This document shows positions 10,840 to 43,723 of a stretch of DNA of 64,000 bases, one piece after another. Both the position numbers and the translations under genes were made by a program. This DNA is from Hirudo medicinalis (Eukaryota > Annelida > Clitellata > Hirudinida > Hirudinidae). The stretch is taken from the NCBI GenBank assembly GCA_011800805.1, contig MPNW01000102.1, forward strand, positions 436,440 through 500,439, written 5' to 3'. The stretch's first letter is position 1. Each line of letters opens with the position of its first letter. The notes beneath the pieces were generated by a model, which worked only from the letters and a program-made list of their open reading frames with translations, was not told the origin of the DNA and did no database searches.

Positions 10840-13800
10840 TCACGTCCTTTTGATCTGTGAGAATTTTTGCTGTAATAACACGAAATGATCACAGCTTATA
10901 TTAAAACATATTTTATTCTTGGAATCCAATCATTCCTTACCTTTAACGCTGAGAATTCTTCGTTCTTTAGCCTTCCTCGTAAAGACTCTAGTTGTTCCAA
11001 AACTGCAAAAGGTTTCCCTCTAATGTCTTCTATTAGAACTGAGGTTAAACAATCACTCACCATCTGTACTTCCTATTAGGTCCAACGCGGATAAGTTGAT
11101 CAGGAGTACACATAAGTTCGGATTGTTAACTCTTTCATTGAAATTGATTGAAACGCCGCAGTATGAACAAAGTTCTTCGAACTCTAAAGGAAGATTATGA
11201 ATCTTTTCTAGTATTTTTGCTTTGCATGCGTCCATATCAAAAATCTGTTCGACGTAGTTATCATCATAATCAGTTAAGCTATGTTTATGTTAATGCCACC
11301 TTAAATCCTTAAATTTTACTTTACTGGGAGCCTCCACAATCTTTTCGAAAGACCCTTCGTGTCCGTTTCCGGGGACTTCAAAATAAGAAGGGACATAATT
11401 CATCTCCACTCCAGATTTGAGTTTCATAGCAAATATGTTTCCATGTTTATCCCTCCTCAGAAGCAAACCCTGCAATTAATTTCTTTTCAGTTCAACGAAA
11501 GAAATTTCAATGCGCCAACCTCGTGAAGATTATCGATGCTATTCTTTCCAATCCTTGTCAGCCAATTGAAATCTGGACTTTTTAATCCCAGTCTGAATTT
11601 TAAGAACAACATTTTTAGTTACTTTTTATGAAAAAGTGAAAGGAATTGTCAACATTTTGCCATCATATTTATTGGCGCTGTTATTAACAGTGACTTCGTC
11701 GTCTCTGACGTAACACTTCACTGCGACATTTTCCATTTCCACGATGATGATTTTCATCCAATATGTGCTGCAGAGTGTTGGAAAAGAATCCAAACAATCT
11801 TTGATCAAAAACTGGAATATGTAATTTTAGAATGGAGGTCTACAGTGTTTGCAAATATTTATTAATTAAAAGAATTTTTGCCTCAACTGCTTTAAATTAC
11901 GAATTTAAAAAAATTGTTATAGCCAGAATCAAACCTTTAAAATTGGCTTCACTAAACTTCTACCAACTGGTTCGATGTGAACGGATAAAGACTTGTAATA
12001 TTTTTCGGCGATAAATCTTCTTATGTGGGCCTGACACTTCCTGATTTGTTCTGTTTTTAATTCTACCAGCTGATTCAATCTTCTCGAACAAGCGTAACTG
12101 AGGTAAATCTGTTGAAATAATAATGTCGTGATTTTATATTTTATTGCAATAAATAAAATTACTATTATTATTTTAATTTTTGATTATTCTTCACTTTAAT
12201 GTTCCCAATTTCATGAAAAATATTGACGATTAAGAAATTATTTTCGATTAAGAAAGTATTTATAATACTCAAAAAATAACATGTCAACAAGAAATGTTGA
12301 GAATAAATTCTAAATTAAATCAACCGATTTCAATGAACGAATCACCTTCGTTTTTCCTATGAAATACTCGTTAAGCCCCAACGAAGCCAACAATTTCACG
12401 CAGTTACTGAAATTCATCTCGGAGTTTGGCAGCATTGGCAAGCTAATAAGCTTATATCTTCAGGGAATAAATATAAATATTTTAAACGATGTTTAATAAT
12501 TACATGATTGTTGTTGGTTATTTAATAATTTAGTAAATAAAGGAAATAAATCATTGAATCAATCTCAAGCACTTATCGCTAACTCGGTCAGAAATTGAAC
12601 ACTGTCGAGAGAGATGTAATTCGTTTTACGGTGGAGGGCGATGGTGTTTGGGATGTTGTGGAGTTGTATTTGCTGCTCAACGAACCTTTCATCGAATGAC
12701 TTTAAGGAGTTCTTAGGCGTTGGATTGATACATCTGTTTAAACAAGACCTTTACCTTTATCTTTACGACCATTTCGAAACATTTCTCCATCCGTCACAAG
12801 TGAAGAAATAAAATTATTTCCTTTATAATTATCAGATAAATCAATTTACCAATAGCAAATAAACTTATTTACCTTATAAGTATCGTGGGCATTTCCAACT
12901 CCGAAAAAAGTTCTTTGAGGCTTTGCTGCAAACATTTGTTGATTTGATTTATTCGGCTGAGTGATTTAAAGCCTTGAGGTTGAATAGAAATGCTTCAATT
13001 TACATGACTCCGCATGGACTTAGCTACTAAACCATTTGCCTATAATGGTTAACTCAACCTAATTTAATGTCATAATAATATATAATGTTATAATAATACT
13101 TAATTTAATATGGTTTAACAACTTATTATTGCATTATTATTATTCCATGCGTACTTCTTTAAACCATTTATATGGAGAACAAAGAAAAATAGAGTTTAAA
13201 TTATTGTTGTTTGCTTGCATCAGCTGAGGATATCATTCTATTCTTTCTTTTATATTATGTTATGCTATGCTATGCTATGCTATGCTATATTATATTATAC
13301 TTATATTATATTATTCTTTATAATGGTATTTATTTCTTCAAAAAATACATTAAATTTAATGGATCTGTTGAGAACCTTGAAGTCATGTGTCAGAAAAATT
13401 TCCTTCTTTGACCAATTCGTGTCTTTTTTGCTGAGTTATTAAATTTGATTTAGTTTTAATGAATAATGTTTGCACCTGTTACGAAGATGTAGGCAGATGC
13501 AGGTTAACGTAAATAATTAACGTTCTACATCAACACTAACTCAAGTAATTTACAGGCAATTACAGTAAAATTACAATTAATTAAATACAGTAAATTAAGT
13601 CACAACGTTTTTTGCGAGGTTTCCACTTTTCTACCCGCCAACAAATTTGATGCATCTTCTTGTCTAAAAATGTAAGACGACAAGTTATTCGTAGCATTAT
13701 TAATTTCCCAAAACGACTAAACATTGCCATTACTTATTAATCATTACTTAGTAATTCTTACTTATGATTGGGTTTGCAACGAAGCATATTGATTACAAAT

Positions 13801-16800
13801 TGACATTCAGACTTGTTAAAACATTCAATCAAGTCATTGGCAAAGGATCGCCCCCGATTTTTTTCAATAAATCCATGAATGGAGTACACGACCTATAAGC
13901 AGAGGATATTATCATCATTATTGTTATATATTATTACTTCGTACATTCGTATGTCTTAAGAGTATTTCTTACTGGGCACAAGGTGTGGTTGATGACAAAT
14001 TGCAAGCTGTTGTTTTCTACTTTATTAAAACCCTTGTGATTGTCAAGGTTGTGGTTGATTTGTTGAATGAGGTCGAGGTTTGAATGCTTGTGTGAAGACG
14101 TTACTTCGTCGACGATATTCAAGAATGTTCCTGGCTAAAAACGTTCAATGAGAATAAATTATTAAGAAGTGATATTAAGAATAATTAAGAAATAATGTTA
14201 ATGCTTAAGAAATAACACTAGTAATAATTTAGTAATAAACAAAATAATTAATAACAACTCTATTCCACCTCAATCAGAAGATCAATCAAGAGGTCATTTG
14301 TGCTGAATTCAACTTCGTTTATTGAATCCTGACTTGCTGGGAGAACGTGGAGACTGTTGTTAAAATGTTTGAACAAAACATGGTTGGAATGCCAGACGAG
14401 TTTTTCATTGAACGAGTTGATGATCAGTTGCTCCAAGTGGTTGCTCTTCTTGTGTTCGAATCCGAACGCATCCAAGATGTTTATCTTTAACTTTTCGAAC
14501 CTTTTGGTGATTCGATGAGTGAGAGATGAACATTATTTTGAAACATCTTCAAATTACCCCGAATTTTTTGGAAAGAGGTTGTAGTTTATCCTAAAGATGA
14601 TGAATGTCACCATTTGTTCGTACAAAAACCTCACAGAGGAATCACAGTTCTGGGATACTTCCTCCAAATTTCTTAAATTTCTTACTTTTTCGCCTAAAAA
14701 AATGTCTAATTTACAATTGTCAGCCAAAATGCTGCTTTAAATTTAAAGTTGAACTACAGAAAATGTGACCTTTTTCGATAATTTCTTTTGTCAGCAGAAA
14801 CTTTTCAAGTTCATCCACATCGAGTTTCAACAATCTGCTAACTTTAGAAATTCAAGGTTTATGAAATTAAAACTTCAGCTATCATTTACGTATTTATATT
14901 TTTAAAACATTGTTGTGCCAAAATAACCTGTTTTAAGGGTTTTATCACTTTCAACAGAAACATTATAAAATGAGTTTTTACAGAATTTCATGTCTTTTAA
15001 AAGAATCACAGACGTCAGGATGTCTATAAGATCTTCTATTTCCTATTTCAAAATAATTCCCCTTTTGAATTGTTTGATTTTAACCGTAAACCGGCATCAC
15101 CAACTTTCGAAGTAAAGCCAAATGAAAGCAGGCATTGGACAACATCCTTCCACTGATAAGAAAATGATTCTTCTTTCGTTGACGCAGAGAAGTCTTGCAA
15201 AATATTCGCTCGTGAAAGTCTGGAAATGGTTCATGATTTTATGGAGTGATTGAATGTTGTGAGGTGTTGAAAAGAACCTGTGTGAATTTGGATCTTTTAT
15301 TGAATTCTTGGAGAGTTTCTGTTTATCGACTCCAAAGAAATAATAGTAAAATATGTGGAAACTCTTCTCGCCAGTTTCCAAATTTGTCAGTCTCAATGAT
15401 TCGAGGAGGTAATGCTTCACATTAACTACAGTAAAACATGTTTAGAATTTCCATATTCTCTCATGCACATGTTTATTACACACTGAGTATTGTATATTGA
15501 ATACTAGGTGAACACTGTATATAGTACTAAATGCACACTGTATATTATATAATGTACTAAATGCACACTATATATTGTATATTGTACTAAATGCACACTA
15601 TATATTGTATATTGTACTAAATGCACACTAAATATTGTATATTGTACTAAATGCACACTGTATATTATATAATGTACTAAATGCACACTATATATTGTAT
15701 ATTGTACTAAATGCACACTGTATATTGTGTAATGCATATTGTCCATAAAACACCATTTAACCTCCTATACAACTCCCATCTTCGTTGAAAAACAACTGAA
15801 ACAACTTGACGCATCTCGTGCTGTTCGGATGAAGGTCTGTTTCGGCATTTGTGAATGCTTCGAGGAGTTTGTTCAACTGAAATCGTGCGTAAAAGCTTGA
15901 ATGATAATTGGTGAAACACAATTAGGGGAAAATGATTGGTGGAAAGTGATTGGAGGATTACAAAAATCAACCATCATCATTTTTTTCATCAGCACTTTGT
16001 CTTTGACGCATTCCGTCTCCGCCATTACTTCCATGATATTTTCACAGCAATGAGATTTTCCTTTATAAGCAATAACAATAATATTAACATTCAACAAATG
16101 AGTGACTTTAACTTTCAAATGTGTGCAGATTAGCTGAGAGTTTTGAACATATGACTTATGTTGGCGGTAATGGCGGTATTGGCGGTAATGGCGGTATTGG
16201 CAACATTCGTAAGGTTCCGTGCTCGCAGCACAGCCCAGCTTGCACTGCCGTAAGTGCTCTGGGATGGAGCGCTATATAATTGGCCAACAAAAAGCGCCAC
16301 TGAAACTGCATATGGGGCTATATAAATGAACTACATACACACTAAGTTTTTGTAAAATCATATTTCATCATAAATCGATGAACTTTTTCCGAAAAGTAAT
16401 GAAAAAGGGTTTAATTCTGCTCAGTTAAATAAAGTCACTCCAACACCAAATTTCTAAAATCACATATAAATAGCACTATGTAGTCCAAATCATCTCAGTC
16501 ATGCAACGGCCTTTAACCAACTAAACTAGTAGCTCTATGACTTCCTGAAGCCTTCCTTTTTACTGAAGAACTTTTTGGACCTTCTGGAGCTTCATGAAAC
16601 TTTCTAGAACTTAGTACAAGTCTCGAACTTTCTGGAACAATCATTGTTTTAAAGCAAGTAAGCTTCCTGATTCAACAACATTAATTGCTCTTCTGAAAGA
16701 TCTCCAAGTATGATTTTTAGTTATAGTGTCTCATAAGAAAAGTGCTTGTAACACTGAAAGAAACAAAGATCTCAATTTCAAGAATCACATAGTAAAAGAA

Positions 16801-19800
16801 CTGTTCCATTGAAAGAACAATCATAGAAAAAGCAAGGCGTGCAGGTTGGCCGAATAGGTTGCGTTTCCCGCATGCGGTGTAATGGCAACAGTCGTAATGA
16901 GTCGTATTCGCAACCCAGCCTGCACCGCCAGGGAGCGCCCTCGAGTAGGAGCGATTGATGATTGATGGTAAAGCGATTGAAAATGCCTTCACATCCCATT
17001 CTGATTTATAAGGCGCTCAATAGGTCGGCTAAATGCAACAACAAAAATACAAAACAGCAGGATACCACTAGAAATCCGAATTGTTGGTCGCTATCCGAAT
17101 AAAATGCCTTGAGCATCATTCAAAGGAGGGAAAAAAGACAAAAAAGAAATTGCGAAAGCAACATGTTTAAAACATCGAATATCCTTATATCCTGGAACAA
17201 TGTTCATTTGTCTCGGGTTGCTTTTTTTTTTTTAAGAAACTGGAAGATTTCCTAAAGTCAAGTTTCAGAAAATACTTGAATGGAATTCAATACTTGAATA
17301 GAATGCCATTCCAAGAGCAATACTGTTCGAAATTTTTAAATTCATCTACAGATAGACGAACCATTAGTTTACTGACCAAATCTACAGTACTTATGTAGCA
17401 GCTTGCAGGTTCATGAAAAAGCATAATACTCTGTGAAGAAATTTTGGAATCAAAAACCATCAGTGACTGAAAATTTCCAAATCAAATCAACATGCAGAGC
17501 GGGCAATCAAGTGCCTTCGAGATCTTTATGATATGAAATCTATATAAAGAAGATTAAATTTGTTTTGTTTAACAAAACATAATAATTGCATATTATGCCA
17601 TAATTGTGTTAAATAATCCGCGATCTTTTTCATTATATAACTATTCGCACTTGTAGAATTGAAATGTAAGTTTGTAATTGTAGAGTGGTGGATTTAGAGG
17701 GAACGGGGAGGGCCCCCCCCCCCGTGATTTTTAAAATCTAAGGTAAAAAATCTGTTTTAATTTAATGAATTTATTTTATTTCAATAATTCACGACTTTGG
17801 ACGAAAGTATTAGTAGCTGTGGTAAAGCTACTAGAATTGTCGTTGTCGATCCATTGTTGTAACTTCTCAAAAACCGTTATTATTAAATAGGTAATGGTTG
17901 GTAAAATCAGATCACATAAAATTTCCGAATTTGATAAACTTTCTCTATCAAATAGCATATCGAAATTTGAGTTTTTAAAAATAATTCACTCAAAAGCTAT
18001 CGTAACAAATCATAGAGCTCCTAAAGATGTGCCGATCACTGTACCAGTAGAGGTAATAGTTGATAATTTTGGTAGATTAGGTCGTCTTGCATTTTTTAAA
18101 CTGTAACTTTGAATAAATTTGAATACAAAGTTCCTGAAACCATTTTATAATTAATAAGCAAAATGGCTATAAAATATCAGCCGGCTTAGCATTATTTGCA
18201 TCAACAAGGGGTTTAGAGATTGGCAGTAAGGGGTCCAGGTTCCAGAGTGCGGCCCCCTTGCCAAAGTATTTTAGATCCGCCCCAATAATTGTATATGCTA
18301 TGTTAGAGCAATGAACTGTTAAATGCTTCAAAATCTGCGTAAATACCATCCAATTACATCATTACAAATGCAAGATAACGCTTCTAAAATATTTGGAATT
18401 TTTTAGGCTTATTAGGTAAAATCGAATTAATTACCTCTGATTTTTTTTGGGGGTTACCTTTTTCAAAGACTAAATCAAATTAATGTCTTTTCCATTACTT
18501 TTAAAGAAAAGTTCATCGATTTATGAAACAGGAACATGGGTACCAAGAAAGTTATAACCATAACGCACACACTCCTCCAAAGCATGAAACAAACCCGATC
18601 CACATACTCCTGTTGGAATAACACAGCATTTATAGCCCTTCAGCATTTTTAAATGTGCTCGTGAAGCAATGTCAAGCATGGATGGAACCACTTTCTTCAC
18701 AAATTGATGATGTTCCTGTAAACGTAAACACCTTTAATACTTGTTTATTATTTACATCTCATTCACCTTCTTCGAGTCTTTAATTGCTCCTCCTGGATTG
18801 ACTGATATCAGAACATTTCTAAGGTACGTCTGTGGAGTAGCAACTCATTTGTGGATGCTCTATCACATTTCATTTCTTCAATTATGACAACACATTAATT
18901 GTGTTGTTAAAACAATACTCGAATTGCACATCAATATGATGATATTATTACGTATGACACGCCTAACTGATCTGATTATCCTAGGAAAATATTCTAGCAG
19001 GTTCATGATTTTCGAAATGGCACTAAACGCAAAAGGTTTTCTCTTTAAATAAATGTTTACATTATGTCGCCATTCTTGAAATATTTTGCGACCTTGAAAC
19101 GGGCATTCCATCTTCTGATATAGCCACGGGAGGGCAAAGAAAGGAAACTGCCCTCTACCCCTGTCATTATGCCCCATTATATTTGTCCAAACCATTATAC
19201 TTTTTCTTAATGTGGGGGTATGAATAGCTAATCTCAATAAAATAAAAACAATGGAACTATTACATATTATATGTTAGTAATTTAGTAATTTAAATTAGTA
19301 ATTTATTACACATTGAAAATTTCGATAACTAAATTACTAATGCTTTTGTATTTTTTGCCGATCATTCGAGTGCCTTATGTATCCGAATAGAATGCGAAGA
19401 CACTTTTTAATCGCTCTACCATTTACATAGCGCTCCTAATCGAAGGATTAGCAGGTTGGGCTCCGAACACGACACATTGCGACTGTTGTCATTACGACCG
19501 CATGTAGGAACGTAACCCATTCGGCCAACCCGCACTGCTTTCCTTATATGTCGTTAGTGTGAAATTATTTGTTTGTCGTTATTCCAGCATCAAACAAGAA
19601 TTGAATAAAATATTAAAATTCATGTATGCAATGACGATCATATACCGTTCGTCTTGTTATGCTAGAGAACTTTAATTTAATAAACAAGAAAGCAATCAAC
19701 TACAAGTTAAATTTATGTTCCTGTTCAAGATTTAATGAGATTGATTTTTTTTTGCTTTGATCATCCATTATAATATCATTCAATATAATATCATTCAATG

Positions 19801-20779
19801 TAATATCATTCAATGTAACATCATTCAATATAACATCATTCAATGTAATATCATCTAATATAATGTCATTCAGTAGGCAGCTTTTTTCAGCACACTTTTT
19901 CGTAGCAAAAAGAGCTGGCGCAGCTGGAGGACAGGTTTCCAAAGTTTTAGAAGGTTTTAACAACTGGGAAAAGGCTTTGGGTAAAAAGGCAGGTTTTGAA
20001 CAGAGTAATGAATCAAAGGTCATTTAAAGGCAGAGCAGGCACATCTAAATTTTTTAAATAAAAAAAAACATGTTGATGTAATATCAATAGAAAAAAGAAA
20101 GATAGGTTTATGTACAAAAGACGTACTTTGCGCTCCTGCATGCTGCTAATATGGCAGTCGTAATGTGTCGTGTTAGCAACCTAGATTGTTAAGGGTTAAC
20201 GAAAATCGACTCCGCTCTATGCATTGGCACTTTATAATAAATGAACTACATGTACGACTGCAGTCTGATGGAAACTGGTGTAAGATAGGAGTATAATAAA
20301 TATTTATTAAAAGCAAATAAAATCGTGCCACCCACTTGCGACTGACCACGTTTAAAGCGATCATGAAGTTCTCTGCAGATGTCTGCAATATCAGTCCCAT
20401 CAACATCCAACAAATTGAACTTGTCCTTGGTCATATCCATTGAAACTGTGAATAAAGTCACAATTTTACATCTAATAATATCTGTTGACCAGTGAAGCTT
20501 AACGAAACTTAATCATCGAATATCGAAATGTAACTTTAATTAGCTCCACCAACAATAAAACATATTATTGATGACAACGACATTAATAAACGTCATAATA
20601 AGAATAACGATATTGATAAACTCGATATTACTTCGGGCTAAGTTCACATAATTAAAAGTCTTAGAGTTGAAACGAACCAACGATCAGCTCGTCTTCATTG
20701 AACTTATTTTCGGAAGCATTCAGTAGCCATTTCACTTCTTTAAAATTCAGCACGGCATTGTTCGGTCGCTTAACCAGAG
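10840..20779 (-). CDS. Divergent myosin-like protein: degraded motor head, IQ-like motif, MH2-like tail
   Basis: Multi-exon gene read right to left. Head landmarks in order: LHDRFKRGQSQ (exon 20336-20445) spliced in phase to TYLRNVLISVNPGG (18767-18829); P-loop region IPTGVCGSGLFHALEE (about 18544-18715); switch I region HPNSTRCVK (15762-15876); YLLESLRLTN and GEKSFHIFYYYFFG (up to 15425); DELEKFLLTKEIIEKG (14770-14834); 14558-14693; switch II DAFGFE plus NHLEQLIINSFNEKL (14269-14490); relay region (13973-14130); 13762-13892; 12873-12925; converter region (about 12571-12710); YFIGKTK (about 12335-12455); IQ-like RKCQAHIRRFIAEKYY (about 11950-12100). The tail (11808-11061) matches an MH2 pattern: WMKIIIVEMENV, RLGLKSPDFNW, GLLLRRDKHGNIFA, FDMDACKAKIL, CVLLINLSALDLI. 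It ends via exons 10941-11038 and 10840-10869. P-loop Lys and Thr are replaced. The first exon and one head exon are not resolved, and the frame breaks near 11640. Motor assignment is firm; the MH2 call is inference. Confidence 0.8.
13258..13312. repeat. Microsatellite, 5-bp TATGC units grading into TTATA
   Basis: Several tandem ATGCT units followed by TATAT/TTATA. It lies in an intron of the myosin-like gene. Confidence 0.8.
15490..15737. repeat. Minisatellite of about 30-bp units
   Basis: About eight tandem units of the form GTACTAAATGCACACT plus a TATATTGTATATT-type remainder, with small differences between units. The unit length is a multiple of three, so the minus strand reads as a decapeptide repeat. 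That is a by-product: it lies in an intron between the switch I exon and the next head exon of the myosin-like gene. Confidence 0.9.
16210..16340 (+). repeat. tRNA-derived SINE, copy 3 (partial head)
   Basis: Contains CAGCTTGCACTGCC, GGAGCGCTATATAATTGG, AAAAAGCGCC and GCTATATAAATGAACTAC, matching the family tail. The 5' head is largely replaced by GGCGGTAATGGCGG-type repeats (about 16160-16200). Confidence 0.7.
16841..17016 (+). repeat. tRNA-derived SINE, copy 4 (long-tail variant)
   Basis: The head GCAGGTTGGCCGAATAGG and the matching CCAGCCTGC form the tRNA-like acceptor stem. The tail includes AAAATGCCTTCACATCCCAT, shared in reverse orientation with the copies at 19370 and 60091. It lies in an intron of the myosin-like gene. 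Confidence 0.78.
17683..18285. mobile_element. Non-autonomous hAT-type DNA transposon (MITE) with 8-bp target duplication
   Basis: About 603 bp flanked on both sides by the 8-bp duplication TAATTGTA (17675-17682 and 18286-18293). The ends are imperfect inverted repeats: left GAGTGGTGGATTTAGAGG, right (reverse complement) TTGGGGCGGATCTAAA. An 8-bp duplication and GGCGGATCTA-like ends are typical of hAT elements. No transposase is recognisable inside. It lies in an intron of the myosin-like gene. Confidence 0.8.
19370..19538 (-). repeat. tRNA-derived SINE, copy 5
   Basis: Reverse-oriented long-tail copy with TATCCGAATAGAATGCGAAG at its tail end and CATTCGGCCAACCCGCACTG at the tRNA-like head end. 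It lies in an intron of the myosin-like gene. Confidence 0.8.
19700..20023 (-). other. 107-codon open frame with pentapeptide LND[IV][IT] repeats, in a myosin-gene intron
   Basis: An open frame on the same strand as the host gene, with an unremarkable N-terminal half (for example KAFSQLLKPSKTLE) followed by about eight pentapeptides of the form LNDIT, LNDVI, LNDII. The repeat is coded by 15-bp tandem DNA units (about 19765-19875; ATATCATTCAATATA-like). A 15-bp satellite stays open by chance in one frame, so coding is uncertain. It could also be a skipped exon or an element-derived frame. Confidence 0.3.
20127..20252 (+). repeat. tRNA-derived SINE, copy 6 (degenerate)
   Basis: Shares GGCAGTCGTAATGTGTCGTG with the other copies and the tail AATGAACTACATGTAC. 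Internal parts are diverged. Confidence 0.65.
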
Positions 20780-20860
20780 CTATAAGTAAAGACGCCTGTT
20801 GAAGCTTGTGTAGTTCACCATAATTTGTAACACAGAAATAGGAAGCTCAACGTAATTTCA

Positions 20861-22251
20861 ATGGAAGAGGAACTGGACGGAAGAGAAAAATTTGAAAGTT
20901 TTTTAGAAAGCATTAAATCATCCGATGTGCAGAAAAGTTTGATTTCCTTATTTTGCAGATTCGTTGACGTGTCCTTCACAGCAGGGTCAGTGTTTTGCCC
21001 TGCACTGGGGTCTGTCCACAGCATTGTCAAAATGTTCTACCCGAATTACAGTCAGGAGGAAATCATGAAGAACTTTGTTGACCTCAAGCGAATGATCAAC
21101 AAGATGAACAACAAAATGATGGAACTTCTGTTGAGGAAAGATGGAATCACATCAAAACAAGATTCCTCGATGACATCGAAAGTCTCGAATCAGCAATTCA
21201 AATAACCTCACTTGCCCTGAAAGCAGAAAAGGAAGAATTTGCAAAGAATTGGATGGAAGAATTGATGGATCGAGGCAGAGGACTCATGCGACCACTGAAC
21301 CACTTGCTGGACGGAGTTGCAGGTGAGGAAAGCCAATGTGAATTTGACGATCAAATTTTAATCTCTTTTTCCAATTACACTGGCGGTGACAAAAGAAAGA
21401 TCGAAAGATTTTGCTTGTACTTAGATCAACTCCTTTTAAATGGGCTGGCTTCTTTATGCGTCTACCTTACTTTTAGGAAAGGAATTGAATGGTGCCATGA
21501 AGTCGTTGACAGCTTAAATTTCGAACAGAGACTTACGAGGTCAGTTGGAAACATGATGGTAGTTCTAGAGAGATGCGAAAAAGAATGCACAATAAACATG
21601 CGCAAGGACGCAAAGGAGATTTTAATGAAAGAAACAGGTGATGTTCAAAGCAGTCTCTTAAAAATCTCAGAAATCTATTTCAAGAAATATTATTGGATGG
21701 AGACCTTTTTCATATTTTACAAATTAATTGGAAGAAATTCTCAAGTGAACCCGAAAGATGTTTTAAGCGATAAAACAGCGGTTGCTTCTGTGCACAGCAC
21801 GGATGAATGTGATGGGCAAGACTGTGATTATGCGATTAGCGAGGGCGGGATAATAGAACATTTTGATTCTGGTAGCGACAAAGAAAAGGTTGACGAAGTC
21901 GACTTCTCCAATCAAGATGACAACAAGCGTTTTGTTCTCTTAATTTTCGCGCGAAGAAAACCTGTCGAAGAGACGTGTCTATCAAAGTTGGAAGCCACCA
22001 GAGTAGCAGAAGATTCTATTAGCCTGAACAGAAATTCAAGAACAGCTTTTAGAAAAATAAAAAACGAACTCGATTCCAAAGGAATAGCCTACTGGGGCTT
22101 GGCCGTCATGAAACATGCCGGTCATCTTTGGACATCTCGTGCAAGCATTTTCAAATCTGGGAGCAATGAAACCTGCGACGTCGTTTGGGTGGTGAAAAAG
22201 AGTTGCACTGTTTGTATTTTGTTGGGAGACGGAGACAGTCAACTTCAGTGA
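20861..22251 (+). CDS. Unrecognised intronless gene, interrupted by one frameshift
   Basis: Frame one runs from ATG 20861 to a stop at 21205. From about 21121 another frame carries equally protein-like sequence (SVEERWNHIKTRFLDDIESL) on to the stop at 22249-22251. The two halves overlap at about 21080-21205, so one gene of roughly 450 codons with a single -1 shift near 21130 is the simplest reading. The N-terminal part has a short hydrophobic stretch (SVFCPALGSVHSIVKMFY) followed by helical, Lys/Glu-rich segments; cysteines are scattered. Overall it faintly recalls animal rapunzel-like or other helical membrane-active proteins, but that is a guess. It starts about 80 bp from the last resolved exon of the opposite-strand myosin-like gene, so a shared promoter is possible. 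The shift may be a sequencing indel, a decayed gene or recoding; no classical slippery heptamer was seen. Confidence 0.65.
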
Positions 22252-22805: not shown

Positions 22806-25800
22806 TCAATCAGCTTCAGGTGGTGCATCAAGGTCTGTATAACTCACGACAGCTCTCGGGTCTGCTCTCATTCTGAAAGGAATGGCAACAGGTGATCAAG
22901 ATTCAAAACATCCCCACTAAAATCCACTCACCTGTCTCTTCTTGGAAGCGCATGCATGTTTTCCCTCTCCCTCCTGAAATCTGCTCTGTATGAATCATGT
23001 CCCCTCACGGCAAATGGAGTTGGATAAACACCTGAGAAATGTTATCGACATTTAATTTCTCTACTAAACTCATTCAATTATTTGACAGATCTTTTTATTA
23101 AGCAATTAATTAATTAAATGAATCTGACATCCAGGTGAACAGTTTTAGAATAAGCTAACTTTATCTAATTCTAACACGATGAATATCAAATATCCTGCTT
23201 ATCATGAGATTTCGAGGTTTTCAAAGTTCAATTACTTACCAGGATAGAGCGGTGGCCGATAGAACGGGTGGTGAACAAATCCATGGGGAATGGGAGGAGG
23301 CAGTGGATTGGACACCTGTCGTGTCGATGGATGTTCAGGCAGCTGCAATCTTCTTGGATCGTTGAGATAATTGTTAAAATAGGCAACCTGTTATGACCAA
23401 AGTGATAAGTGTCAACATTTTCAGACCAATTAGTCATCATAAAAAAAAAAAAATATAAGAAATTTAAAAACCTAATAGGGAAATTTCAAACACAAAAGTA
23501 CAACAAAAAACAAAACAAATCCTAACTTCTTTCTTGACATCATCGATCTTGTCTTCGTGCTTGCTCAAAATGTGCTTCTTGACAAACTCAGGTCCTTTGA
23601 ATTTCTTTCCACTGAGAGGACACAACCATTTGTCCTTTCCAAGCTCCTGCATGTTGGAAGCAATGAACTTCTCCACTTCTTCCTCCTGGTTCTTCCTGCC
23701 CAACTTGATGGCGTCGGCATCATCGAGTTCAAACTTCGGATTCAAGAAAGGTCCTATCTTGTTTTCAAATGAGCTCATCCACTCAGTCACTAGAAAGTGT
23801 AAGTGCATTCACTGATCTTTCATCAAATGACAAAGCTGATTTAACTACAACTCACCATCCCCAATAGTAATTTTTGCAACAGTGTTGAGACCCCTGGCAT
23901 GTATTATGCCACACCTGTGAGGCATTTCATCTTCATTGGGGTACTCATATGCTCCGTAGTAGTCGATCGAATAAACAATCCTCAGATACAACAGCATGCG
24001 GTCCAGCACCTGAACAAATGGAATATATTTTAATGATCGTCCTGGCCATAATTTTGGACTAAAAAGGCATCACCATCAAGAGTTCATCATCTCTTTCAAT
24101 AACCACTTCAGAGCTCGAATCTTTCTCCTTTCCTGATCCTTCTCCTGCAATAAAATATTGAGTATCTTCAATCAATTTTATTGATAATAAAAAAAAATTA
24201 AATCTTCTGTAATTGAAAGAATAAAAGATACAAATATTTAAAGATGTAGAGGGACAAATTGCTCACCTAGGGCTGTATCTTCATAGTCAATCTCATCGAC
24301 CAAGAATTCTGTGATGTTCTTAAGAACTGGATTGTTGGTGACAAATCCCTGAAATACATAAAATTAATATGTAACCACAATAAGCATACATACATTATGG
24401 TTGGCCGTTCTACTGCATATCCACTGACAACTGCACTCATGAAGACATGTTGATAAAATAATCTTTTGTGACAATTCTGCACTATTCACACATGGCATAA
24501 AACTCACAATTTTCTGCTCCTCTTTTTCTCCTGTAGACTTCTCATCCCACATTTTCCACCTTTTGTCGAGGCTTTGAATGATTTTAGCTGCATGTTTGAT
24601 GTCTTGTTTAGCCACTGATTTGTGTACAGATAGTCCGTTGACAGCCCTCACTCTCTGCCTCAATTCTCTGTTGACTATGGCACCCATGTCACAATCTCTC
24701 ACCTATGTTCATCAAACAATCAATATTAACCCATTTAGCAATGATTTAATCCAACACTTACTCTCAAATTGTTCAAATTCCAGCAGATGTCCTTTACATT
24801 GACATTCCTATCAAATGTTATCCACCCGCGTCTAGCAAATCTCCTCTCAGGCTGAGGGTCTTGTATGCTCACCCTAAGATATCCAGGGTATCTCTTGCAA
24901 ATCTGCATTAGTCCATCATGGGTTTTGATCATCATGACATCCAAACTACTTGTAAAAACATAACTCCCACCGATTCCACTTCCTGCTTCGTGATGGAAGG
25001 GATAAGATTCCTCAAAAATATGGACTGTGTTTTGTGAAGAGCTCTTGGTTTTGGCTCAACAGAAGTTTCCCCTGATGCATTAGTTAATCAACTTTCAGAT
25101 CAACAAAATTTTGTGGCATATATATATATATATAATCATTAATTACCTTTGACTTCATCAGTTATCTGATTCTCCTCTGGATCTTTATTTGATTCTCTTT
25201 TAGTCTCGGTTTCCTCACTGATTTCAGGCTGTAACAACATCTATGGATACAAACTCAGAACTCACCACAAACAAAGGAACATAAAACATACCTGCTCCTT
25301 GTTCTCAGCCAAGCTGTCATCCTCTGTTTTGGATGGACAAGTCTATTTTAGAAAAAAAATCAATAAGATGCAATCTTGAAATACAATACTATAATCATCT
25401 TTATTTTACCTCCATTGCAACAGATTCTGACTTCGTTGCTGGTGAGTCCTTTTGGTCTTGATCACTGGTGAAGCAAATAGAAAGATAAAGCAGCAGATGA
25501 AGATACTCCTCGATAACATCTAATTCTCACTTCTTTTCAGGGTTTTCTTGAGCATTCTCATTAGCTGTCATGTCTTCAAGGATGTCAAGAGCTTTCAGAT
25601 CAAATTCTATGCCTCCCTCCATTAAAATAACGGCTGCAATAACGAGCGGATTAACATTTGGTTGCAGAGTATGCAACAATCATGTAAACGAAAGCAAGCC
25701 ATCATATGATCTAAAGATAAAATTAGCTCCAGAAAGCATGATAATATTTGACGAGGAAATATTCTCGACAAATCCCCCAAACCTGAATCGAGGAGACGAA

Positions 25801-27495
25801 CAAGTTCGTTGCTGCAGCTCATATCAAGAGTCACAGCTGAAATGCTGCCCATGTCCAAGAGCTTCATGAAAACATCCCTTCTATGCTTGAGTGAGGAATT
25901 CATTTCTTCTTGCCTCAAAACATACTCATCTGGATGATACTTGGATCTAAACCTTGGTGACAAAAATTAATGACTTTAATAATGAGAACAGTAAATGAAA
26001 AGAGGCCAGTAGAATCCAAGCTTTAATAAAATGCACTCAACATCCCCATCTTACCACACAAGAGATCCAGAAATTCTTTCAACGAGTGTGGCATATCATA
26101 ACAGATCAAAACTAAAGGCCTAACTACCTTACTTTCAACCAAGCTCAAATTAAATAAAAAGCTCAAAATTGAGGATATAAGCATGTACAATCCAGGTCTT
26201 TCATGCTTCCCTGTTAAGATAGCTAGCAACACAAAGAATGTGATGAAAAGTTTTTGTCATTTCCTACAAACAGCAATTATGGCATACCATTCCTCCTCTT
26301 TATGTTGAAGAAAAAATTCTTTTATCTGCTCTTTCTTGAACTCTAGTTTATACTCATTGTAGCGCTTAAAGCTTTCTTCATCAGTAATGTTGTCATCCTG
26401 AGTGGACAAGAAGTGCTTGAATGACATCATGGGAGGCTGGGTAGGGTAATCAACTTCTGACCTGAACAGAAACAACTCTCACTCTCAGTTCACATAACAC
26501 TTTAGTAAAACAAATTATACTTCACTAGAAAAATGATACTCATTGAATCATTTACCCTTTCTGGTTCTGGATTCCAGACGAGTGAGGAAGCATGGAGATG
26601 TCACCAGAAGCTGAGCTCCACATGGGGGGAGGCGGACCATGCAACCTGGGACCGTAAGGCACGTCATAATGTGGATAACCCTCATCCCTGTTCGAAATAA
26701 ATATGACAGATTTTTGACTGCTGCAACTCGAAGAATAAAACAAGCCATAGATCAGCACCAGTCTCTCCTCATCCGTTTAGCTTGAGGACTGCTGTCATTC
26801 CTTGCAGGACTCCTTCTGTCTCTGTGACTCCTGTCTGCATCCCTTCTGTCACGGGATTGTTTTGACCATCCAGACCGACTGCAAATGCACAAGTATTTTA
26901 AATAATCACATGTCTTGAGAGTTGATTTTCATTTCCGCATAAAGAATCATCATGTTTATGTCAGACTCATTCCCTCACACCATCCATTCATCTTTGAGCC
27001 AATCTAAAAATAACTGTCATGCTTTGCTAATTTAAAGGTTGTTTAAAATAATTGTGAATTGCTTCTAAAGTTGGACTTTCAAAATCTGACTTAGTTTTTC
27101 AATAAATTAATCAATAATGTACAGACTTCAATGTGAAATAAATTCATAAAATACCTACAAACAAGAATTGTACCATGAAATAAGGGATTTTGATCCTCCT
27201 AAAACCGAATAAAAAGAACGCCAACCACAGATTGCACATGTGTCCCTACAGGCCTTTATCATGTCATTGTAATATATTGTAAACCTAGCAAGTTGTTTTC
27301 ACTGATGCTCATCTTTAATATCAGCATAGAAAAACGAGAAATTGGAGCTAAGCACATGTATAAGTTTTTGATGACTCCAATAGAGAACCTGTTCTGATCG
27401 CGACTGCGTCTTTCATCTCTTTGATCGTAGTCATTTCTTTCGTGTCGGAATTTATCGCGACTCCTCCTCTCGTATTCATCATCACTGTCAACCAT
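22806..27495 (-). CDS. SRRT: ARS2 / serrate RNA effector molecule, copy 1
   Basis: ARS2 bridges the nuclear cap-binding complex to RNA processing and decay factors. It reads from [19 protein letters not shown] (start 27493-27495) to [18 protein letters not shown] (stop 22806-22808). In order: Arg-rich N-terminus (27389-27495, about 26768-26879); [15 protein letters not shown] and [10 protein letters not shown] (about 26287-26462); [10 protein letters not shown] and [11 protein letters not shown] (about 25782-25950); acidic linker exons (about 25100-25640); RRM-like region with [19 protein letters not shown] and [18 protein letters not shown] (about 24763-24945); [19 protein letters not shown] (about 24500-24700); [20 protein letters not shown] (about 23870-24010); zinc-finger exon [19 protein letters not shown] (about 23527-23790); Pro-rich C-terminal exons. 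All regions of animal ARS2 are present, so this is the better-conserved, probably principal copy. A paralogue lies 2.3 kb upstream on the same strand. Confidence 0.95.
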
Positions 27496-34377: not shown

Positions 34378-34917
34378 TCATTCAAAATATACGGCAAAAA
34401 CTGTAGCAACTGCGTAGAAAGAACTATTGTTAAAAACTACGGATGAATAAGAATCAGTGCTTGAATTCCAAAGACATCGACTGAAGAGATGAATGCTAGG
34501 TCTGTCTTTCGAGTCGCCAATGTTGAGTATCGCCACTAGCTTATAACGTTTCGATTTCACCTTAACTTCATTCAAGATTTTTTTGGTCAGAACCAAAGAC
34601 ATTTTCTGAGCAAATTCTGAAGTATAAACAGCGTTCTCTAGCTCGGACTTCAACAAGTTATGAATAATTCTGTCTATCAACTCGCAATCAAATTTATCTT
34701 TGGGGTCAGGCACCAACTTGAAAGTATTCTCGAATATTGTTTCTCGATGATAATTGCCATAATGTGAAAGATTGTCTTTCAATGGTTCCACGAGTCTCTC
34801 TTTCATCAAACTTTTGTTGTCGTCGCTTAAGAGTTTCTTTGAATCTTGCTTCGATCCATTCTCTCGAATAGAAATTTTATCAGCCACTGATTTTTTATCC
34901 AACGTAATCCTAGACAT
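34378..34917 (-). CDS. Tctex1-domain dynein light chain (DYNLT2/5-type)
   Basis: Single-exon frame of 179 residues with ATG at 34915-34917. An unconserved, Lys/Ser-rich N-terminal extension of about 60 residues precedes a complete Tctex1 domain: FENTFKLVPDPKDKFDCELI at the start, a central helix pair, YKLVAILNIGD, SRCLWNSSTDSY, and the canonical end FYAVATVFAVYFE. Such proteins are light or accessory chains of cytoplasmic and ciliary dynein. The long N-terminus places it with the TCTEX1D/DYNLT2-DYNLT5 group rather than short DYNLT1/3. No introns are visible, so a retrogene origin is possible. It lies between ARS2 copy 2 and CLK on the same strand; no shared regulation is evident. Confidence 0.92.
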   Translation of the reverse strand: MSRITLDKKSVADKISIRENGSKQDSKKLLSDDNKSLMKERLVEPLKDNLSHYGNYHRETIFENTFKLVPDPKDKFDCELIDRIIHNLLKSELENAVYTSEFAQKMSLVLTKKILNEVKVKSKRYKLVAILNIGDSKDRPSIHLFSRCLWNSSTDSYSSVVFNNSSFYAVATVFAVYFE

Positions 34918-36424: not shown

Positions 36425-39400
36425 TTAACTAAAAAATGGATGAGTGAGTGCTTCGTTGAGGGTGATTCGATGGGATGGTTTGTAAACCAACATCTTCCTT
36501 ATCAGGTCAAACAACTGCCTATGTATCTCTGAGCTTGATCTTCTGTATCTCTGTCGATGAAAGCTCACTTAAGTGCTAATGAATTAATATTCACCCATGA
36601 ACACAACTATTCCTTCTTGGTCAGAAATTATTTTAGCTGATTTTAGATATTATTTGCAAATCAATAAACAGCTCATTAATACAACAGAGCAACAAGCGGC
36701 CACAGAAACATTTGCATTGCAATGCAGACATACCTCTAATGGTTTGCATTGATCCCTTACGGCCAGACCATCATCACTGTTTTCATCCCAGTCGAGATGA
36801 CCATTTCGGAAGTACTTTGTTTTCCTACAATGGGGAATCGCACATTGCAGATGCAAAAAATGCAAATAAATTAAATGGCAGACAAATGCATCGTACGAGG
36901 AATGCTTTATCATGGACGATGGTAGAGGTCCAAGAATTCTTTCCATCATCGCCAAATGCTCCAAGTTGTCATGAGTCTGAAAGATGAGTTATGCATTGTT
37001 TACAAGTTTTTATGAACATATAAAAGCAATAAATAAGCAATAAATAAGCAATAAATAAGCAATAAATAAGCAATAAATAAGCAATAAATAAGCAATAAAT
37101 AAGCAATAAATAAGCAATAAATAAGCAATAAATAAGCAATAAATAAGCAATAAATAAGCAGTAACCGATAAAATAATTAAGCCATAAAAACCATCAAATA
37201 ATTTATAAATATTAAAATTCAATCTGGTGGATCAGATGAGAACGGCCATTAGCATTCTTACCTGGAACATGGTGTGGCCCGTGTATAGTTCGAACAAGAT
37301 GCAACCGATGCTCCACACGTCGCAGGGATACGACCACCCGAGTTCTAAACGTAACGTCCGAATTATTGTCTTCCAAAACCATAAAGAAATTGCGAATTTT
37401 AAGACTAACCCAAAACGACTTCGGGGGCACGATAATGACGAGTCGAAACCACCCTGCTGTGGTGTTCGTCTTCAAAAGTTGCAGATCCGAAATCGATTAT
37501 TTGAACGTCGGCACACCTCACCCTTCTAAGTTCCCGGTCCTTAAATGCATTAAACATAGAATCTTAAAACCATTGATAAGCAACGTGTAGTACATGTAGT
37601 GCATATTATATTGGTAGTTACATTATAAATTATCAACACCATTGACATCTACCTTGTTGTGAAATCTTTTTGTTTTATAGTATTCAGATGAAGAATCTAC
37701 AAACAAAATATTCTCTGGCTTAAGATCTGTGTGAGTCAGCTTGTGATCGTGCAGAACTAAAAGAAGAAACAAACGTTGTGATTCTACCATTTAATTTATT
37801 GATTATTATATTCATCTTATATCCTACACTTTACTCCTCTGACCAACTGGTAAGACATCTGTTGAACATGTTCCATTGGATAAGGATAATAATAATTCTT
37901 TTTCTGAAATGCAAACTTTTCTTTAATATTTTGATTTATCCTTTTTACATGTCTAAATGCGTGCAAGGTAGTCTACCATGAAATCAAAAACACTTTCTCC
38001 AAGTAGTTCAAAAACAATGCAGATGTGTCCATAATAATCAAACCAATCCAACATCCTTATGCAGAGGCTGCAACAAAGTATTCATATTGATACCAACTTA
38101 AGATAAGTATACGTCAATAGCAAGAATAACAATCGTCTAACAATCTCCCTCTTGATTCGGTCCTCTGTATTTTGTCCAAAATCTCAACTTCTGTTTTGGC
38201 AGCTTCCCTATATTTTGGCACATTTCTGATTATTTTCACAGCTACCCTCTCCCCACTGAAATTTTCATCAAATTAGGCATCGAACATTTAAAAAAAATAT
38301 TAACATGAAAACTACTTAAAAGTATCTTTTGTCTCCACCACTTGACCGAACGTCCCCTGGCCCAAAGTTCTTATAAGTTTATCTGGGTGAAAAAAAATGT
38401 TTAGTTGGGATCTAGTGCAAAAACCTCTGAAAAATATTAAAACTTCATGCATCTATGTAATCAAGTTCACTGAGGGATAATAACGGAGAGAGAAGAATAG
38501 GAATGACAGAGTTATCTACATCTATCACGAAGGAGATCCCCCTCTTTGTACACCAGATGCCCTTCTTCATCATTCTTGATTTTCTTCCTTCGTTGGTTAT
38601 GTCTGTGGGCCTGCAGCACCAGAGGTCGTCGAGCACAATCACAGAATGTTTCATCGCCATCATCATTTGGGACAAAAGCAGGTCACAAGCAAAAGATAGA
38701 AGAGGAGGGAAAAACAAATTATCATCATGGCTTCAATGAACCTCTAATTATTCCATGCAATTATTTTAATTTCATGTGGAGTCTAACTAATCATCCCAGC
38801 ATGTCCAACCCACCCAAGAAGAACTTGTTCTTGAGCTACGAGACGAATCTCTCCAGTGCTCCTTGTCATCATCCGACGGTGATCTTGATGAAGGACTTTT
38901 ATCATTGGTGCTACAATCCCTTGGCGACCTTGCATTGGGAAATAGCAAAAGAATTGAACTTATGCATAATAATTAAGAGTTATTCTTGATGCCTACTTGT
39001 GTCCATTTTGGTAAATAGAATCATGAGAATAATCTGAGGTTCTTTTATGCTTATATTTGTATATCTCTTCTTCATCATTATCATGAGAGTATTTCCTTTT
39101 GTGCTAAAATAGTATAAAGTAACTATTAGTCAGTTATTGTACACAAATATAAGATTTCATTTGACGATGTTAAAGTTCTGATGATGATATGGCTTGCAAA
39201 TTCATCTACCTTTTAGAAACCTAAGATGTCTACCTACACTAAATATGCATCAGAAAATTATACTGGTTTAAATGATTTATACTGTTTCAAAACAAATTAC
39301 TACAATAAAAGTTATTTCAATAAGTCTACTATTTCAGCATGTTTTCAAGATGCACAATTACTTTGTGAAATCCAACTTATCTGTCTGATCTTAAACAAAT

Positions 39401-39690
39401 GTCTTAATTGCAAGGCTACGTTCAAACAAATTTTTCGTTGGATATATCTCATTCCTTGACTAAATTTCTGTGTTTGAGTTGGTATTTTATTCTATTATAA
39501 AAAAAACCCGTCTTCACTGATGACCCGATCCCATAGAACCCATCCTCCGCGATAAATGGCAAAATAAACATGGAATGATCATTTCAAATTATTATATCCG
39601 GAACATGAAGTATACCAAAAGCACAGTTTAAAGTGATTGAAATGTGAAATAATCACCCTGTTGTAAATATGAGTCTCCATTTCGCCGATA
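36425..39690 (-). CDS. CLK: CLK-type (LAMMER) dual-specificity kinase
   Basis: CDC-like kinase that phosphorylates SR splicing factors in the nucleus. Probable start METHIYNR near 39680, then a basic low-complexity N-terminus ([13 protein letters not shown] at about 38960-39060; [17 protein letters not shown] at about 38520-38690). Kinase exons right to left: [14 protein letters not shown] (about 38330-38383), [15 protein letters not shown] (about 38141-38257), [19 protein letters not shown] (about 37979-38066), 37827-37905, [13 protein letters not shown] (37653-37756), [20 protein letters not shown] with APEVVLG (37410-37539), [15 protein letters not shown] (37262-37344), the family signature [12 protein letters not shown] (36897-36976), 36734-36825, and the last exon 36425-36550 ending ALTHPFFS. 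All catalytic motifs (GxGx[16 protein letters not shown]) are present, so it should be active. Confidence 0.94.
37022..37160. repeat. 11-bp tandem repeat, about 12-13 units
   Basis: Unit AGCAATAAATA repeated almost perfectly within an intron of the CLK gene. Every unit contains AATAAA, the polyadenylation hexamer, on the + strand, that is antisense to CLK. Confidence 0.95.
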
Positions 39691-40294
39691 AAGTTTCTCG
39701 ACAGTGAAAACACAGTAGTGATGCAAAGAATATAACGCCTAAACACGATATAATATACTACACATTTTCAACCTTGCTATAAACCATTTTTACAAAATTA
39801 TTTTAAGAATCAAATTTAAAAGCGGTTTATTAAGAAAATCTAATTAATTTTAACAATTAAAAGTTGACATTTATAATTCGTATCCGTTCGCATATTTACA
39901 ATAATAACACAAAACACAAGTAGAGAATTAACAAAATTTTGATATGATATGAAAAATACCGCACATATATATATATATATACATATATAAGTACTTTGCA
40001 TAGAACATATATGGAAATATAAATTTGGGATAATTTATTAAGAAAGTGTTGACATTAAAGGACGGTTTTCGACACTGTTACTTTACTGCTGCCCAGCTCA
40101 TATTTGATCATGTTTTATTTTATTTATTTATTAAACGAGCAGAGATCCCAGACTTTATCACGTCATTTATGAAATGATTGTTTGAGAAACATTGCTGTTT
40201 AACCTCAATTATATTATAATAATTCAACGTTAATACAATAATTAACATAGGGATTTAAATATCTAATTTTAAAATATGTAATAACACATAATTT

Positions 40295-42383: not shown

Positions 42384-42396
42384 TGGAACCAGTCTT

Positions 42397-42857
42397 TCAG
42401 GATAAGTCATCATCATCAAATAAATCTCCAAAATCTAAAAGGACATTAAAGTCACTACAACTCAATTGATTTAATGACTAAAATTTCTCTAAAACTCTGC
42501 AATATGCAATTATTAGCCTTAATTGAGTTTAAAAAGCAATGTTAAAATTACCTGAAAAAAAGTCTGCATGCATGGACTTGTCATTGGTTGTAAGATCCAT
42601 CAGCACTGAACTTGAGCCACCAGCCTTAAACAAAATGGACAAAAATTAAATACGTTTGCATTTATCGAAGCTAACAACTTCATAAATCATCTGCCGAGTA
42701 TATGTTGCTCTGACAAGTAAATAAATTAGAATATTTGGTTCAACATTCAGTAGAAAAGTTCAATCCGACGAGGATTATTTGCAATTACCTCATCTACATC
42801 CATGTATGGGCTGACCCCTTCTGGGAACATCTCATCGGCCACAACAGCAGGTTTCAT
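42397..42857 (-). CDS. COPS9: COP9 signalosome subunit 9 (COPS9 / MYEOV2)
   Basis: Three small exons, 42789-42857, 42552-42624 and 42397-42434, join in phase to a 59-residue protein. It begins MKPAVVADEMFPEGVSPYMD, has SSVLMDLTTNDKSMHADFF in the middle and ends DFGDLFDDDDLS. Length, the acidic character and the C-terminal FxDLFDDDD motif match COPS9, the smallest subunit of the COP9 signalosome, which helps set the activity of this cullin-deneddylating complex. The exons are individually too short for ordinary open-frame searches. Its stop lies 13 bp from the stop of the convergent pseudokinase gene, so the two 3' UTRs must overlap. Confidence 0.95.

Positions 42858-43661: not shown

Positions 43662-43723
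<62 letters not shown>

Follow-up and report, generated by a model that had tools for sequence, protein, structure and literature searches.

A myosin gene of Hirudo medicinalis with an MH2 tail nearer to Expansion than to SMADs and a probable pseudo-motor head

Myosins that end in an MH2 domain are not new, and the portions of the literature cited here describe the architecture for class 80 and for sponge, choanoflagellate, mollusc and annelid proteins. Class 80 comprises MH2-tailed myosins and is described as restricted to Ambulacraria; lophotrochozoan orphan myosins share the layout of head and MH2, and their heads cluster with class 36 or close to it (Kollmar and Muehlhausen, 2017; PMC5583752). 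The same survey acknowledges myosins whose P-loop does not function; its sections on these proteins mention neither the P-loop state of class 80 nor Expansion (PMC5583752). Myosin III-like proteins with a C-terminal MH2 are known from Salpingoeca rosetta and Oscarella carmela, in an account that places an SH2-bearing layout in the myosin III-like group and discusses the myosin MH2 as the first home of the SMAD domain (Sebe-Pedros et al., 2014; PMC3942036). These two reports overturn one statement of a sequence-only reading of the present locus, namely that it knew of no described class with an MH2 tail.

Two further groups of proteins provide points of comparison. Expansion and Rebuff of Drosophila carry an MH2 of the N-alpha-MH2 type (PDB 4r9p), are called protostome-restricted and have a role in chitin deposition in the fly (PMC4388265), where chitin translocation requires their N-alpha-MH2 (PMC9894549). 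Class-18 myosins have a deviant P-loop and deviant switches and negligible ATPase activity, and a scaffold role has been proposed for them (PMC11112018).

The stretch of DNA analysed here (the window) comprises 64,000 nucleotides of Hirudo medicinalis, and its positions are used throughout. It holds a gene that, like class 80 and the lophotrochozoan orphans, joins an animal myosin head to a C-terminal MH2 (PMC5583752); the Salpingoeca and Oscarella proteins resemble it in the same respect and in their myosin III-like surroundings (PMC3942036). On the minus strand, from 20440 to 10840, 24 exons called by eye, guided by homology and phase, join into a single 972-codon frame of head, weak IQ and MH2, with no inner stop and GT-AG borders in 23 of 23 introns. 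Many splice donors are weak, and joins were placed by homology. The gene starts at 20440 or upstream, a further candidate exon lying near 20676-20827. Its parts are the following.

20336..20440, minus strand: first coding exon, start of the motor domain (MDMTKDKFNLLDVDG...KRGQSQ), ATG at 20440-20438
18767..18829, minus strand: exon TYLRNVLISVNPGG, motor N-terminal strands, aligned with myosin X TYIGSILASVNP
18544..18715, minus strand: exon with the P-loop position, GVCGSGLF against GESGAGKT, by alignment with relatives
15762..16060, minus strand: two exons (16060-15972, 15876-15762), the second with switch I, HPNSTRCV
14928..15425, minus strand: three exons (15425-15278, 15219-15105, 15042-14928), YLLESLRLTN onward, upper 50 kDa region
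14269..14841, minus strand: three exons (14841-14770, 14693-14558, 14500-14269), intact switch II, DAFGFE
12346..14134, minus strand: six exons (14134-13973, 13892-13762, 13663-13604, 12956-12873, 12733-12584, 12457-12346), lower 50 kDa region, converter, YFIGKTK
11935..12108, minus strand: neck exon with a single degenerate IQ-like motif, IRKCQAHIRRFIAEKYY (Pfam IQ)
11061..11811, minus strand: predicted Expansion-type N-alpha-MH2, four exons (11811-11654, 11592-11520, 11469-11320, 11244-11061)
10840..11029, minus strand: C-terminal exons (11029-10941, 10869-10840), end of the protein with stop TGA

The first coding exon is an open frame with a GT donor and joins the next exon in phase 0; the first three exons together match Myosin_head at 4e-4 (19.2 bits), which for so short a piece falls under the cut-off. 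Further along, the head HMM matches the ORFs at 15100-15441 (1.8e-11) and 14263-14532 (3.8e-13), and the relay helix in the exons at 14269..14841 appears diverged by eye. The myosin head landmarks named in the sequence-only reading (NVLISVNPGG, YLLESLRLTN, DAFGFE and YFIGKTK, then an IQ-like stretch) are all present in frame, and Pfam Myosin_head matches a 937-aa model of the protein at 8.2e-77 over profile positions 30-678 of 679. The neck exon reaches 13.3 bits with Pfam IQ (E 0.075; cut-off 20.3 bits). The tail landmarks follow in the order WMKIIIVEMENV, LGLKSPDF, GLLLRRDKHGNIFA, FDMDACK and CVLLINLSALDLI. A guess by eye of a myosin I with a TH1 tail was rejected, Pfam returning MH2 and no Myosin_TH1 (PF06017) at E 1. 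Across the window, a Pfam scan of ten ORFs gave no match for six; the rest matched ARS2 (two), Tctex-1 and, weakly, reverse transcriptase.

The closest relative found, P0001, is a protein of 1112 aa encoded in one frame on a contig of 3629 bases. Like the window gene, it holds a head and an Expansion-type MH2 within that frame (Pfam MH2 6.5e-14). The two proteins are 28% identical over head columns and 25% over the MH2, their tails match pairwise at 5e-18, and the C-terminal exons of the window gene align partially with the end of P0001. In contrast to the window gene, P0001 has a longer neck and an intact P-loop (GESGAGKT) and switch I (NNNSSRFG). The protein search that yielded it had an SH2 domain in nine of its 11 best matches. 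An AlphaFold model of P0001 built from 28 rows is usable in the head; residues 787-1112 have pLDDT <50 except residue 1026, leaving the tail part unusable. The proposal of the sequence-only reading that head and tail form one gene is well supported, because the 972-codon GT-AG model is continuous and P0001 has both domains in one frame.

A second MH2 gene of the same genome, C311, consists of neck and MH2. Its MH2 exon boundaries are common to the window gene, at the same positions and in the same phases, and the two paralogous tails are 27% identical, with 28 columns invariant across three MH2s. Neither tblastn (E 0.01) nor the head HMM (E 1) found a head exon on the 64-kb contig of C311; the same HMM gave ten ORF matches in the window at E <=1, eight of them at <=0.0014. 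Two other heads of the genome look, by eye, like members of other classes. C113 has a C1 and RhoGAP-like tail and is taken as myosin IX-like on that ground, and C121 has IQs and a MyTH4-like region. The head of C424 continues to a GRTKVFL of its own.

The window head departs from its relatives at the nucleotide site. Its P-loop position reads GVCGSGLF, whereas GES..GK[T/S] is found in 44 of 44 relatives, and the P-loop is intact in all four other heads of the genome that were read through it (C424, C121, C113 and C61). Both residues that hold ATP, the P-loop lysine and threonine, are replaced. The sequence-only reading was silent on these two residues. Switch I (HPNSTRCV, against NxNSSRFG) is eroded with its arginine retained, and switch II (DAFGFE) fits DxxGFE and is intact. 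On these letters, the head looks like a pseudo-motor. This apparent loss of the P-loop has no stated counterpart for class 80 in the sections cited (PMC5583752). The switch letters are deviant also in the heads C362, C841 and C77 of the same genome, so odd heads there are not confined to the window gene. Class-18 myosins have different tails and a PDZ domain and are not known to carry an MH2. What they share with the window gene is the deviant P-loop and switches (PMC11112018).

The window head is also strongly diverged, with a best identity of 28% and an end branch of 4.57 changes per column. An unconstrained tree places it with insect NINAC (98/98), apart from P0001; a forced clade of the window head and P0001, the sole other MH2 myosin available for the tree, is not rejected (p-AU 0.25). 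A protein kinase domain, a trait of myosin III and NINAC, had no match in the 937-aa model or the N-terminal piece, where the 5' end is perhaps incomplete.

The sequence-only reading likened the tail to the MH2 of SMADs, and of this the MH2 assignment held, at a score below the Pfam threshold, and the SMAD affinity did not. Pfam MH2 (PF03166) matches the 937-aa model at 0.0017 and the tail alone at 4.5e-4 (20.9 bits, under the cut-off of 25 bits). Against solved structures, the window tail matches fly Expansion (4r9p) at 1.4e-6, in an alignment that starts in the extension ahead of the Pfam MH2 start, and a three-row MH2 profile of the window tail, P0001 and C311 does so at 6.4e-26. The profile has three rows because a protein search with residues 640-937 gave no match at E 0.01 among 2520 candidates and one with the P0001 tail returned only P0001 itself. 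Up to E 10, Expansion is the sole MH2 structure matched by these tails and their profiles. With Expansion as query, the real window tail scores 30.0 bits and its shuffles at best 8.9 among the 1450 listed of 2000. Pairwise scores against Expansion are 74 bits for P0001, 51 for C311 and 30-31 for the window tail; against SMAD they are 7-8 for P0001 and 7 for C311, with the window tail not listed. As a control, when a SMAD of the genome served as query, 24 SMAD sequences ranked ahead of Expansion, which came last. A SMAD of the genome scores 31-33 bits with Expansion, a value that the window tail does not exceed; the call leans on the scores of P0001 and C311 and on the window tail having no score against SMAD. 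By sequence comparison, then, the window tail, with its predicted MH2 fold, is nearer to the Expansion N-alpha-MH2 than to the SMAD MH2, in contrast to the SMAD-origin view discussed for myosin MH2 domains (PMC3942036).

Expansion and Rebuff, with a conserved region ahead of the sandwich and a short loop at the L3 position (PMC4388265), appear to share these with the window tail, in which the region would be a helical extension; the loop has eight residues in the window tail and 11 in P0001, C311 and Expansion. However, they lack a myosin head, and their MH2 is N-terminal with further conserved regions after it; the window MH2 is C-terminal, behind a myosin head, a layout other than that of the Expansion/Rebuff family.

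The reading we consider probable is that the window gene encodes a class-80-like MH2-tailed myosin whose motor has become a pseudo-motor, a non-motile scaffold with an Expansion-type MH2. Four other explanations were weighed against it. The strongest of these, though improbable, holds that the protein is an ordinary ATP-driven class 80 MH2 myosin whose odd P-loop reflects a wrong exon, an assembly error or another way of holding the nucleotide. P0001 shows that an MH2 myosin can have an intact P-loop, and the window head retains its switch II as well as the arginine of switch I. In addition, GYNFLGKS, a Walker A by its letters, is formed at one inferred joint 17 residues past the P-loop position; it is taken as chance, since the strand CCVI does not precede it and its aligned position lies beyond the P-loop. 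However, the P-loop position lies within one unbroken 172-bp exon, away from joints, the minus-strand frames across 10-21.5 kb contain no unspliced GxxxxGK[ST], and the divergence extends over the entire head. A decaying pseudogene would also have a long branch, a lost P-loop and weak splice donors, but this is distinctly unlikely: the 972 codons run on with neither a stop nor a break of frame, whereas 500 shuffles of the exon DNA give 67 stops on average and never fewer than 45, and frame, exon phases and the invariant MH2 columns have been kept despite a paralogue split from C311 that is old, given how little the two tails have in common.

The apparently headless C311 would suit a pair of adjacent genes, with a headless MH2 gene directly downstream of a myosin gene. 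This is very improbable, as the window model stays in phase from head through tail, its neck exon begins directly after the GKTK position with the MH2 placed as in C311, and P0001 holds both domains in one frame on one contig. Hardly to be expected at all is a SMAD-type tail carrying TGF-beta signalling to a motor. In its favour, the domain named by Pfam is MH2, and Expansion itself matches a SMAD of the same genome and, at 1.3e-35, Pfam MH2. Yet searches with the window tail, P0001, C311 and their profiles matched no SMAD structure up to E 10. The window tail also lacks the KGWGxxY loop (NERVNNPN stands at the L3 position) and the SSxS end (the protein ends in KFSQIKRT), whereas a SMAD of the same genome, on C363, has both KGWGAEY and SSVS. 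The 937-aa model had no match to the MH1 DNA-binding domain at E 1.

If the window gene is a pseudo-motor scaffold, its head would have lost its grip on the nucleotide through replacement of the P-loop lysine and threonine and erosion of switch I, with switch II kept, and would not walk on actin. The protein may then act as a cortical scaffold or tether, as is thought for class-18 myosins, with the MH2 as the working end that would bind partner proteins. By analogy with Expansion and Rebuff, the partner machinery may be an apical chitin synthase complex, the least certain step. Two likely chitin synthases with WGTRE occur in the genome, and chitin export in the fly requires the Expansion domain; both point to a possible link with chitin export. 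The chitin-synthase pieces (C823 5000-14900 and 14026-17385, C53 37000-46900) gave no head-HMM match at E 1. A wider and doubtful proposal is that MH2 myosins and Expansion/Rebuff form one ancient family of cortical chitin-synthase cofactors, Expansion and Rebuff being MH2 myosins minus the head. The window gene, with its dead head, and C311, in which no head was found, would then be stages of head loss. Because lophotrochozoan MH2 myosin heads lie with or near class 36 (PMC5583752), the class 36 synthase with a built-in head and a motor-free synthase with an MH2 helper could, on that proposal, be two solutions to one need.

What this locus adds to the published architecture would be the combination of a tail nearer to Expansion with a putative pseudo-motor head. 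If the tail is nearest to Expansion, its closest functionally understood protein would be a cofactor of chitin export and no transcription factor, and a little-studied myosin class would gain a concrete candidate function that can be tested. The dead head, if true, would be a case of a myosin retained as a scaffold after the loss of its engine, in a genome that also holds C311.

The minus strand of the window was read between 9.5 and 21.4 kb, and exons were joined on homology, phase and GT-AG boundaries. The resulting gene model has 24 coding exons between the start codon ATG at 20440 and the stop codon TGA at 10840, with 972 codons, no inner stop and GT-AG at all 23 introns; shuffling the exon DNA 500 times gave a mean of 67 stops and a minimum of 45. 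GC content is 0.42/0.29/0.44 by codon position in the exons and 0.31 overall in the introns. Judged by its sequence, the gene appears to be real. The 937-residue part that leaves out the first exon matches Pfam Myosin_head across nearly the entire profile (8.2e-77), and PDB structures of several myosins, among them X, XV and Ic, with E-values starting at 6e-47. The head is followed by an IQ-like stretch, which lies under the Pfam cut-off, and then by the tail. The best relative in the protein search, P0001, is a 1112-residue protein from a second source, whose single reading frame lies on a 3629-base contig and matches both Myosin_head (1e-200) and MH2 (6.5e-14); its tail aligns pairwise with the window tail at 5e-18 across about 190 residues. 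Because P0001 carries both domains and its tail matches that of the window, head and tail form one protein in the second source too. The fusion of a myosin head and an MH2 tail in a single gene, proposed by the sequence-only reading, is thus well supported.

Several other features were observed around this gene. The intron following the switch I exon holds a tandem array of units about 30 bp long (TACAATATATAGTGTGCATTTAG..., 15520-15725 minus, by eye). Similar peptides (e.g., SQPxLHRQGAPSSR and CGRNxNSRNV) recur by eye at 16112-17016 and 19416-19553 on both strands, and at about 48500 of contig C311; they probably stem from a short repeat dispersed through the genome. Long open frames of 124 and 389 codons (20861-22251 plus) run away from the myosin start and have no Pfam match; the first of their ATGs lies some 420 bp away from that of the myosin. 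Exons of an ARS2/Serrate gene lie at 23467-25966 minus (Pfam ARS2 8e-38, SERRATE_Ars2_N 1e-10). Farther along, an ORF of the Tctex-1 family lies at 34381-34917 minus, and 58535-58876 minus matches reverse transcriptase weakly.

The tail had been read as MH2-like and of SMAD fold. The MH2 reading stands, as the tail covers positions 2-149 of the 174 in Pfam MH2 at 4.5e-4, under the curated cut-off, and its single credible PDB match is the fly chitin-secretion protein Expansion (4r9p, 1.4e-6; the four remaining rows up to E 10 are all 0.14 or worse). With Expansion as query, the real tail scores 30.0 bits and the best shuffle 8.9, among the 1450 of 2000 shuffles listed. In PDB searches, 4r9p is also matched by the tails of P0001 (7e-20) and of a paralogous MH2 gene on C311 (2.1e-12), and by a two-row (4.2e-23) and a three-row profile (6.4e-26). 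Among MH2 domains, the tail appears nearer to Expansion than to SMADs: none of these three tails or two profiles matches a SMAD structure up to E 10, and the window protein has no MH1 match and no SSxS end. As a control, a SMAD of the same genome found 24 SMAD sequences, with 4r9p last at 6.4e-7. A match to a GCN4-viral glycoprotein chimera in the profile searches (0.038 and 0.0022) is confined to the profile's second half and was taken as chance.

Expansion itself matches Pfam MH2 at 1.3e-35 and is about equally near to the genome's SMAD (31-33 bits) and to the window tail (30-31 bits). The case for an Expansion-type window tail therefore comes from P0001 (74 bits against Expansion and 7-8 against the SMAD) and C311 (51 and 7 bits, respectively), together with the absence of any listed score between the window tail and the genome's SMAD. 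The alignment of the window tail with Expansion begins in an extension ahead of the Pfam MH2 start, which is described as absent in SMADs (Beich-Frandsen et al., PMC4388265). The loop at the L3 position has 8 residues in the window and 11 in P0001, C311 and Expansion; reported lengths are 17 in SMADs and 11 in Expansion (PMC4388265). Taken together, the sequence comparisons favor an Expansion-type rather than a SMAD-type tail. Elsewhere in the genome, PF03166 exceeds its cut-off on six contigs (C363, C902, C392, C255, C1472 and C193); peptides of the first three read as SMAD by eye, and C363 and C902 have an SSVS end.

All 1557 contigs (133 Mb) of the genome were searched with the fly Expansion domain. 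Two matches reached E 1 or better, neither significant alone: the first MH2 exon of the window (E 0.25) and C311:22464-22610 (E 0.36). The latter exon is matched by P0001 at 7e-13. The MH2 domain encoded on C311 is confirmed by Pfam (2.3e-9); its identity is 42% with P0001 and 27% with the window tail.

C311:20984-25587, second MH2 gene: neck exon and Expansion-type MH2

The C311 exons were called by eye with the pattern of the window in mind. The first MH2 exon is 158 bp in both genes, and the MH2 regions agree in the position and phase of their first acceptor, their three introns and their last donor. Upstream of the MH2 exons is a neck exon whose IQ motif exceeds the Pfam cut-off. Searches of this 64-kb contig yielded no myosin-head exon; what lies upstream is a phosphatidylinositol-transfer-protein gene and a kinesin. 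The head may have been lost from this gene, or the assembly may be interrupted at this point.

The window head was aligned with all 44 proteins returned at E 0.001 or better from 7993 candidates scored. The P-loop reads GES..GK[ST] in 44 of 44 relatives and GVCGSGLF in the window, where leucine replaces the lysine and phenylalanine the threonine in the register of the alignment with PDB myosins. A second alignment is shifted by one residue, and in both registers lysine is off the key column. Switch I is HPNSTRCV for NxNSSRFG, whereas switch II is intact. A Walker-like string, GYNFLGKS, arises where exons 18715-18544 and 16060-15972 are inferred to join, 17 residues beyond the P-loop position, and was taken as chance. 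The four other heads of this genome read through the P-loop (C424, C121, C113 and C61) all have GESG[AS]GKT, and a C919 exon reads GESVTG where its P0001 match ends. Diverged head pieces on C362, C841 and C77, with odd switch I/II letters (YNSTKF, LNATRF, HVVDFPGRE), look class-18-like by eye.

A tree of 32 heads (the window and 31 selected from the 44 relatives, 13 being left out) places the window by insect NINAC (98/98) on a branch of 4.57 changes per column, and P0001 among SH2-tailed and choanoflagellate heads. Constraining the two together is not rejected (p-AU 0.25). Tail and gene structure were given more weight than the head tree.

The sequence-only reading knew of no described class with an MH2 tail, yet such proteins are in print: C-terminal-MH2 myosins of Salpingoeca rosetta and Oscarella carmela (PMC3942036), and class 80 of echinoderms and hemichordates (PMC5583752). 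Annelid and mollusc orphan myosins are built like class 80, and their heads fall with, or close to, the chitin-synthase myosins of class 36; some myosins carry non-functional P-loops (PMC5583752). In choanoflagellates, MH1 and MH2 are encoded in separate proteins (PMC6040629). The architecture is therefore known; what is added here is the proposed Expansion-type tail and the apparent loss of the P-loop. No paper linking MH2 myosins to Expansion was found among the open-licence papers searched, and the word "myosin" is absent from PMC4388265, PMC9894549 and PMC6792448.

Two genes of this genome match Pfam Chitin_synth_2 in one exon each (3e-10 and 6e-10), a profile that also matches in 4 of 14 bacterial control genomes. 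Both contain WGTRE, a motif given for the fly chitin synthase Kkv (PMC9894549).

C53, about 37000-44400: likely chitin synthase with WGTRE
C823, about 14700-16800: likely chitin synthase with WGTRE

The pieces of these genes that were read gave no match to a myosin head. Further motifs also underlie their naming as animal chitin synthases, and both are likely to be chitin synthases.

In P-loop enzymes, the P-loop lysine helps to hold ATP. Class-18 myosins, whose heads are also deviant, have negligible ATPase and proposed scaffold roles (PMC11112018). Given the role of this lysine and the example of class 18, we infer that the window head would not turn over ATP, which would make the MH2 domain the likely working end of the protein. 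In the fly, the N-alpha-MH2 domain of Expansion and Rebuff is required to translocate Kkv-made chitin, whereas neither protein depends on it for its placement; recruitment of further proteins has been proposed as its role (PMC9894549). By analogy, and as a guess, the leech protein may act as a cortical cofactor of a chitin synthase complex.
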